Of a stretch of 36,230 nt of DNA, positions 25,320 through 27,243 are shown piece after piece. Every line of letters begins with the position of its first letter. Within the stretch, counting starts at the first letter, position 1. The DNA is from Methanomicrobiales archaeon (GTDB lineage: Archaea; Halobacteriota; Methanomicrobia; Methanomicrobiales; Methanomicrobiaceae): contig JAAEEQ010000012.1 of assembly GCA_013415665.1 (NCBI GenBank), positions 1 through 36,230 of the forward strand, in the 5' to 3' direction. Below the pieces are notes generated by a model, which did not search any database, was not told where the DNA came from, and was given only the letters and a program-made list of their open reading frames with translations. The translations under genes and the position numbers were made by a program.

Positions 25320-25811
25320 TTATTCGTCGGTGTCCTCGCATCCCTCTTCCGATCCCGCACAGCCGTCGCAGACATGCCGGACACCGAACGCCTGGGAGCG
25401 GAGCGATCCCGAGAGGTACTTCTTCCCTCCCCTGATGAAGCGAACCCCGCAGACGGCACACTTTTTCGGGAGGATACGTTCGAATAATCGGAACGGAATC
25501 TCGATATTGACGGGCACTTGGCCCCCCCGCTTTTCCCCGGCCGACAACTGCTCCTCGTACCGCGAGATCAGCTGCATGATCTGGACAGGATGTGCGCCAA
25601 GACGGTCGAGTTTTTTAAAGAAAAAGTACTGGAAGACCATCCAGGAGAGATCCGAACGCCCGATGAATTCGTCGAACTCCGCATCCTCGGCTTCGCTCTT
25701 CTCCAGGGAACAGCCACAGAGAGGGCACCGCCCGCCTACCAGTTCGTCGAGATAGACTTCTTCTTTACAGCTGGGGCAGGTTGTGTGAGGAGCGTGGATA
25801 CGCGAGGTCAT
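25320..25811 (-). CDS. Hypothetical protein with two zinc ribbons
   Basis: 163 aa; N-terminal CPSCKEEVYLDELVGGRCPLCGC, C-terminal CAVCGVRFIRGGKKYLS...VCDGC. Confidence 0.75.
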   Translation of the reverse strand: MTSRIHAPHTTCPSCKEEVYLDELVGGRCPLCGCSLEKSEAEDAEFDEFIGRSDLSWMVFQYFFFKKLDRLGAHPVQIMQLISRYEEQLSAGEKRGGQVPVNIEIPFRLFERILPKKCAVCGVRFIRGGKKYLSGSLRSQAFGVRHVCDGCAGSEEGCEDTDE

Positions 25812-25894: not shown

Positions 25895-26398
25895 TCACTC
25901 CATCAGGAAAATTGCGGCGGCGATAACGGTTGCCCATTCGCCTTCATCACTGACTTCCGCAGATTCGGTGATGTTTAAGGTTTTCGCCGGCGTTTTATCG
26001 GTTATACTCTTATACATGTCAAATGCGAGCTGTTCTGCATATTCACCGGCTCGCTTTTTGCTCTGGCCGAACGAATGATGTTCGGCAAAATACCCCCACT
26101 GGACATCCTTGTCTTCCGGAATCGCAACCCCGACCGAAGCTGAAACCCGGCGTGAGGGTTCGTTGGATGAGAGCCGGGACATCACGGTGAAGACGATGCT
26201 GCCCGCATGCAGCTCTTTTAAGCCTTCATCTTTTGATACAATCTGGCATTTGGGCGGGAGAATCGAACTGACTGTGACGAGATTATAACATTCAATCCTT
26301 GCTTCCCTGAGCGCCATTTCAAAGGAAGTGAGACGCTCGGCATGTTTGCCGGTTCCGGACGTAAAAAACACTTTCTTTGGCACAAACATTCCCGTCAC
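25895..26398 (-). CDS. pdaD: Pyruvoyl-dependent arginine decarboxylase
   Basis: FVPKKVFFTSGTGKHAERLTSFEMALREARIECYNLVTVSSILPPKCQIV (SS self-cleavage region), GSIVFTVMSRLSSNEPSRRVSASVGVAIP. Confidence 0.93.
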   Translation of the reverse strand: MTGMFVPKKVFFTSGTGKHAERLTSFEMALREARIECYNLVTVSSILPPKCQIVSKDEGLKELHAGSIVFTVMSRLSSNEPSRRVSASVGVAIPEDKDVQWGYFAEHHSFGQSKKRAGEYAEQLAFDMYKSITDKTPAKTLNITESAEVSDEGEWATVIAAAIFLME

Positions 26399-26459
26399 TT
26401 TGACATCACCTGCGGACTTTCCTCTAAGGTTTACTGCTGGCTACTTAAATCTACTTATC

Positions 26460-26600
26460 AACCCAACGTTTTAAATCGTTTTTATTCAATTTGGGCGTAT
26501 TTAAACGAATAAAAACCAAATTTGTCGTATTTAATCCTTTTAATTTCGTTTTAGGCGTTTTTAATTCGCAGGATTCTCATTTGGCGAATTTTATGTTGAG
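26460..26600. repeat. Degenerate tandem array with exact 30-nt periodicity, core TTTGGGCGTATTTAA
   Basis: 30-nt rows: aacccaacgttttaaatcgtttttattcaa / tttgggcgtatttaaacgaataaaaaccaa / atttgtcgtatttaatccttttaatttcgt / tttaggcgtttttaattcgcaggattctca / tttggcgaattttatg... ; the CGWWTTTAA cores end at 26474, 26504, 26534 and 26564. Confidence 0.6.
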
Positions 26601-26786
26601 GGCTTATTCTCCTTCCAATGCCCGGGGGAGACTGCCATCCACCCGGATCGGCTGGCACCGTTCCATAAAAGCCCTTATCGTTCCTTATTCAAGTAAAGGC
26701 TGGTGCATAATGGATTAATTCTGCGTCAGCAGCTGTTTTCCGAGCGGCCGGCCGGAGCCCGAACCGCGCATACAAATGCCTGCGTA

Positions 26787-27184
26787 TCAAAAAAGAAAGC
26801 CCGCACCGTATGGTGCGGTTTGCTGCGCAGCAGGCGTAAACACGCGGGTTGCCGGTTCCCGGTCAATCATGTAGAGCATGCCGCTGCCGACGTCCTTTTC
26901 GATCATGCGTAGTTTATCGAGAATCCCGTGGCATTGGCTTCTTCCTCTATCTGTTCATCGACAAACCACCGGAGCATATTCGATGTCGCATGGTCTTTCT
27001 GCCTGGTTGCGAGATCGACGAGATCGTTGATCCGTCAGGTGACAAACTGTTCATGCTCCAGCGAATGCTCGAAGGCCTTGCGGGGCGATTCCCATGCCGG
27101 CATGGAGAGGTACAGGTAGGAAGAGTACAGCTCCCACCGGATCTGGTCATTGAGCGCCGCTTCGACTTTTGCATTCATCATCAT
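26787..27184 (-). pseudogene. Ferritin pseudogene (internal deletion, in-frame TGA, single-base frameshift)
   Basis: Hand translation: [86 protein letters not shown](frameshift)[29 protein letters not shown]... Confidence 0.85.
26801..26818 (-). terminator. Hairpin plus T-tract terminator-like element at the end of the ferritin pseudogene
   Basis: Stem CCGCACC-GTAT-GGTGCGG; on the minus strand followed by GCTTTCTTTTTT. Confidence 0.55.
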
Positions 27185-27243
27185 GCATCGCCTTCTCCCG
27201 AAAGGGATGATACGTGGAGTGTCGTACACCTGGCATATGGGTC

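Follow-up and report, generated by a model that had tools for sequence, protein, structure and literature searches.

Upstream of pdaD in the window analysed here, a 36,230-nucleotide stretch of DNA from a Methanomicrobiales archaeon, an initial annotation described a degenerate repeat with exact 30-nt phasing in an AT-rich gap. This raises the questions of whether the phasing exceeds what AT-rich sequence would give by chance and, if so, what the repeat does beside a gene for arginine decarboxylation. The nearest relative found for the window is 'Methanomicrobiaceae archaeon Zod_Metabat.564'.

A phased array precedes the putative pdaD promoter

The array covers positions 26450-26593 and is made up of five units of about 30 nt in exact 30-nt register, read on the minus strand, which is the sense strand of pdaD. 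Periodic-profile traceback places unit a, a partial copy that is the weakest and the most distant from pdaD, at 26570-26593. It is followed towards the gene by the 30-nt units b (26540-26569), c (26510-26539, holding the core CAAATTTGG), d (26480-26509, holding the core CCCAAATTGAA) and e (26450-26479), the last of which is nearest the promoter and half-conserved, with ACGATTTAAAACG kept. The four cores singled out in the initial annotation do end at 26474, 26504, 26534 and 26564, and TTTGGCGAATTTTA, its weaker fifth copy, begins at 26580. TTTGGGCGTATTTAA occurs exactly once only; the copies ending at 26564 and 26534 carry two and three mismatches, respectively, and the match of the copy ending at 26474 (AACCCAACGTTTTAA) is mostly confined to its final bases. 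Units within one array are 0.30-0.63 identical, with no strict consensus left.

The array is bounded on one side by a putative TATA-like element, GATTTAAGTAG (26441-26451, minus strand), assigned from its position in the gap between array and pdaD and from conservation by eye. A ribosome-binding-like sequence, GGTGATGT (26403-26410, minus strand; also present in L003), lies ahead of the start of pdaD (25895-26398, minus strand), the inferred target. The start at 26398 had been placed correctly, and the product is a pyruvoyl-dependent arginine decarboxylase (Pfam PF01862, PvlArgDC, E=2.4e-59) that also scores above the cut-off of NCBIfam NF009064. On the other side of the array is an apparently broken ferritin-like gene (26880-27229, minus strand), interrupted by a frameshift and an in-frame stop unless the assembly contains errors there; a ferritin-like frame precedes pdaD in several other genera too. 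Directly downstream of pdaD, positions 25320-25811 (minus strand) encode a 163-aa protein with zinc-ribbon-like CxxC motifs, and a similar frame adjoins pdaD in genus g3.

An inverted repeat had also been reported to overlap the array. It exists, with perfect 10-nt arms, GTTTTTATTC at 26478-26487 and GAATAAAAAC at 26507-26516, around a 19-nt spacer, and is marginal in that 4.6% of shuffles contain one equally good. Judged by eye, the sister species has an imperfect version of it and the second genus has none.

The periodicity exceeds that of shuffled sequence

Array stretches show an identity of 0.46-0.50 at lag 30 and of 0.40-0.45 at lag 60. We compared five such stretches with 3000 dinucleotide shuffles each, counting shuffles that equalled the array at any lag from 15 to 60. 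Such shuffles made up 0-0.13% of the total for four stretches and 1.6% for the narrowest, so that the lag-30 similarity exceeds nearly all of them; a combined score for lags 30 and 60, taken at any period, was equalled in 0-0.07%. Across the 36 kb the array is the top 140-nt window for lag 30, for lags 30 and 60 together and for the 10-nt series, lags 10, 20, 40 and 50 also being elevated, which had gone unmentioned in the initial annotation. WW dinucleotides peak at a period of 10.0 in the window array (P=0.003) and at 9.9-10.1 across four genomes that include three related arrays (P 0-0.003). Because the AT dinucleotides of the array recur at exactly 10.0 bp, 30 nt corresponds to three helical turns, as had been proposed. 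Tandem Repeats Finder did not call the array, a search of 26300-26900 for a riboswitch or RNA leader gave no Rfam family match at E<=5, and plasmid blastn gave no match.

The array is conserved in register across two genera

We compared the regions upstream of pdaD in 22 genomes of the family, one of which (L006) supplies only 64 nt before the contig end. The orthologous regions of the sister species (G001) and of all three g3 genomes (G003, on contig C82, G004 and G005) contain the phased array; their best lag-30 z is 5.5-6.0 for G004 and G005, with a weaker signal of 2.6 for G001. A 30-state periodic profile, trained on the same five pdaD arrays that it aligned, places units b-e in exact register and without indels in all five genomes, which belong to two genera. 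Equivalent units of different genomes average 0.46-0.93 identity, against 0.41-0.51 for non-equivalent units, and the former value is higher in every pair; unit d is 0.67-0.80 identical to its equivalents in the other four genomes. Between the sister species, the array stretch is at least as similar as its flanks. Because equivalent units are more alike than neighbouring ones, the array predates the split of the two genera and is not a product of recent copying. By these comparisons of sequence, the array is old and its phasing has been retained. The regions upstream of pdaD in other genera of the family contain no such array, and blastn across the order returned only g3, the window itself and short scattered matches.

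The signal is specific among AT-rich sequences

Among about 1,240 AT-rich windows from four genomes, with the pdaD neighbourhoods set apart, the periodic profile reached a maximum of 3.8, compared with about 50-72 for four of the pdaD arrays and 30 for that of G001. AT-rich DNA has a mean lag-30 z close to zero in G005 and of 0.3 in G001, with the exception of 25 overlapping G001 windows of more than 70% AT, whose mean z of 1.1 may include the pdaD array. Pairs of cores at 29-31 nt show no general excess in control DNA, and an excess in G070 comes mostly from one pentapeptide-repeat-like coding sequence. AT-rich DNA in these genomes does not generally carry such an array, a genome-wide statement that draws on model searches and sampled stretches.

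One AT-rich noncoding window of G001 (L132, 6401-6540 of contig C27) has a lag-30 z of 4.2. A conserved intergenic stretch with CAAATT-type cores, between genes that by eye are HEAT-repeat-like and methyltransferase-like, has z values of 4.8 in G005 (L088, 1456-1600 of contig C2) and 4.3 in G004 (L270, 1689-1829 of contig C24) and may be a further array.

Related sites occur upstream of speD and kamA

In the window's own genome, a search for the exact core gave 16 matches against 21 for a reversed control, and by itself the 15-mer is thus uninformative. A three-mismatch match to the core in that genome precedes a gene assigned to the AdoMet decarboxylase family (Pfam AdoMet_dc; speD). Owing to this match, speD was already a candidate before we searched the order.

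Model R1, built from the pdaD arrays only, was run on 232 Methanomicrobiales genomes and gave 37 matches away from pdaD at E<=0.05. By coordinate comparison, three of these lie upstream of speD (G070, G115 and G120) and two upstream of the lysine 2,3-aminomutase gene kamA (G013 and G004), whose status as a target was noted only once it had turned up among the matches. As a rough estimate that takes AT-rich DNA as the target space, about 0.04 matches would be expected per such gene. Matches near genes that by eye are grpE-like, Nramp-like transporter, nifH-like and formate-dehydrogenase-like, among others, were treated as chance. At a threshold of at least 12 bits, nine speD or kamA upstream regions were found among the 63 loci compared, some of the nine being the very matches that prompted the comparison; one further match fell elsewhere and none in 1.02 Mb of control sequence.

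With model R2, the highest-scoring site of the genome precedes speD in G112, G201, G070, G115 and G120 and kamA in G012, none of these genomes being in its training set. The R2 scores are weak for G115 (E 0.15) and G120 (E 0.27), and the E-values of the models are rough, with genomes that are often fragmentary and, where related, not independent. The evidence at speD spans families f1 (G005), f3, f5 and f6. In genus g17, which we guess to be Methanocorpusculum-like, 10 of the 14 speD upstream regions have a lag-30 z of their own (3.7-6.6) upstream of a TTTAAAT box, although these genomes are related and the ten regions do not count as independent. In this genus the apparent speD 5' leader (L182-L195; about 170 to 1 nt before the gene) seems to be strongly conserved and may itself be regulatory.

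The kamA regions of genera g3 and g5 have two cores of the CCAAATT type, spaced by about 30 nt and immediately followed by ACATATA. The element common to the pdaD, kamA and speD sites is a CAAATT/AATTTG core with flanking A-tracts; it is neither a TATA box nor TTTAAA. One genome has three near-identical kamA upstream copies with equal R2 scores (L268, L269 and G027:C1:24181), one of which precedes a kamA-like frame of only 159 aa. The speD genes of genus g19 lack the array, and in genera that do have arrays several of the speD and kamA regions fall below threshold, the speD region of G001 scoring like background; the regulon is therefore patchy or the models are weak.

The pdaD product converts arginine to agmatine, and the substrate of the kamA product is lysine. 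Together with speD, these genes are thus all tied to basic amino acids or polyamines. The speD-like gene belongs to the same enzyme family as the pyruvoyl-dependent SpeD decarboxylases of Methanomicrobia (Pfam AdoMet_dc), among which homologues including SpeDC ornithine decarboxylases have been characterised in Methanogenium, Methanolacinia and Methanospirillum (PMC10407285). That study deals with the enzymes, not with their promoters, and the speD-like genes found here may be AdoMet or ornithine decarboxylases.

A helically phased operator is the favoured reading

Phased units, their conservation, their place just upstream of the inferred promoter and their recurrence at speD and kamA are what we see directly. 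From them we infer protein binding, DNA wrapping, a likeness to Lrp/AsnC operators, a ligand, and activation or repression. We consider it probable that the array is a helically phased operator for some sequence-specific oligomeric regulator. Such an operator would consist of roughly five diverged sites that follow one another every 30 bp and stop a few bases short of the pdaD core promoter. A DNA-binding protein, acting as an oligomer, would sit on these sites along a single face of the helix, would probably wrap about 145 bp around itself and would tune pdaD transcription with the supply of arginine or polyamines. The related sites at speD and kamA suggest one regulator of basic-amino-acid and polyamine genes in Methanomicrobiales. 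Of the interpretations that the initial annotation offered, the cooperative regulator is the best supported, because the array is phase-conserved at orthologous pdaD genes and related sites lie at functionally linked genes; an array of TATA/BRE-like sites and a nucleoid-protein site are both disfavoured.

Whether the array works like an Lrp operator is close to an even call. Lrp sites are usually semi-palindromes of 13-15 bp, and Lrp/AsnC operators are often present at the promoter of the regulator itself too. The single cores CAAATTTG and CCAAATTGG are near-palindromic, and the dyad symmetry of the pooled unit profile is not strong, its best centre lying about 2 sd above the mean of 60. No autoregulated locus was seen among the matched loci inspected, nor was a regulator gene identified or an Lrp gene recognised among the neighbours of the R1 and R2 matches inspected. 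We propose Lrp-type behaviour because the 30-bp phasing, the 10.0-bp sub-period, the degenerate units and the promoter-proximal position all match. Archaeal regulators of the Lrp type bind to a series of aligned sites with a spacing of two or three turns, wrap DNA and sometimes recognise highly degenerate sequences (PMC2995911; PMC10201364), and the 30-nt register of units b-e in five genomes has this spacing. Like the operators of Ss-LrpB, Ptr2, FL11 and BarR, the array consists of AT-centred sites at regular intervals along one face of the helix, near the promoter of an amino-acid gene. It differs from them in having about five units at exactly 30 bp that are highly degenerate with a weak dyad, and in its targets, which are polyamine and basic-amino-acid genes of Methanomicrobiales. 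A bolder variant, to which we give a fairly low probability, is that a single DNA-wrapping regulator dedicated to this task, which may lie outside the Lrp family, controls pdaD, speD-family genes and kamA across Methanomicrobiales through gene-specific, chromatin-like platforms phased at 30 bp, in which phase is kept more strictly than sequence, with individual targets acquiring or losing the array from one genus to another.

The phased operator accounts for the data better than its rivals, namely generic histone positioning, curved DNA, a neutral relic and TATA arrays, which all fit less well. The strongest of these, still unlikely, is that 30-bp histone dimers and 10-bp AT/GC phasing fix a nucleosome or hypernucleosome beside the pdaD promoter. 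Archaeal positioning sequences resemble the array in their 10-bp AT phasing and in the 30 bp that each histone dimer wraps (PMC10516927); the archaeal nucleosome code consists of WW dinucleotides repeated every 10 bp (PMC3691661), and the array peaks at exactly 10.0. Histone genes are at hand, with one histone-fold gene in G000 and a PF00808 match in all 14 genomes tested, yet the signal is missing from other AT-rich DNA in four histone-bearing genomes, which makes a general effect of histones or of composition less likely. The array is instead gene-specific, found at few promoters and at functionally linked genes, and conserved in unit sequence and not in AT phasing alone. Archaeal nucleosomes moreover exclude A/T-only pentamers, of which the array is full (TTTTT, AAAAA, ATTTAA), and are depleted upstream of start codons (PMC3691661).

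We regard as improbable an intrinsic curvature, in which helically phased A-tracts would aid the promoter without a sequence-specific protein. AAA/TTT tracts do show a period of 9.9-10.0 bp, which reaches significance in three of the four genomes, but the strongest register is 30 and not 10, unit positions outside the A-tracts are conserved (C16 and G23), and the same sequence model recognises the regions upstream of speD and kamA. Slightly less probable still is a neutral relic of an old tandem duplication: the divergence of the units would suit it, whereas four units in exact 30-nt register in two genera, a stretch no less similar than its flanks between sister species and similar arrays upstream of other genes would not. 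An array of TATA/BRE-like sites or of multiple start sites is very improbable, for although the units carry TTTAAATA-like stretches in an AT-rich region immediately upstream of a gene, a separate, conserved TATA-like element and the ribosome-binding site lie downstream of the array, and the kamA and speD sites share the CAAATT/AATTTG core and A-tracts, not TTTAAA.

Implications

In a limited literature search we found no report on the transcriptional control of polyamine synthesis in methanogens. A conserved operator would be a ready bait for its regulator, and a phase kept better than the sequence would offer a natural setting in which to test cleanly whether an archaeal regulator wraps DNA. 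If the operator reading is correct, the genes for arginine decarboxylase, lysine 2,3-aminomutase and a SpeD-family decarboxylase would form a polyamine regulon, defined by the element that they share.
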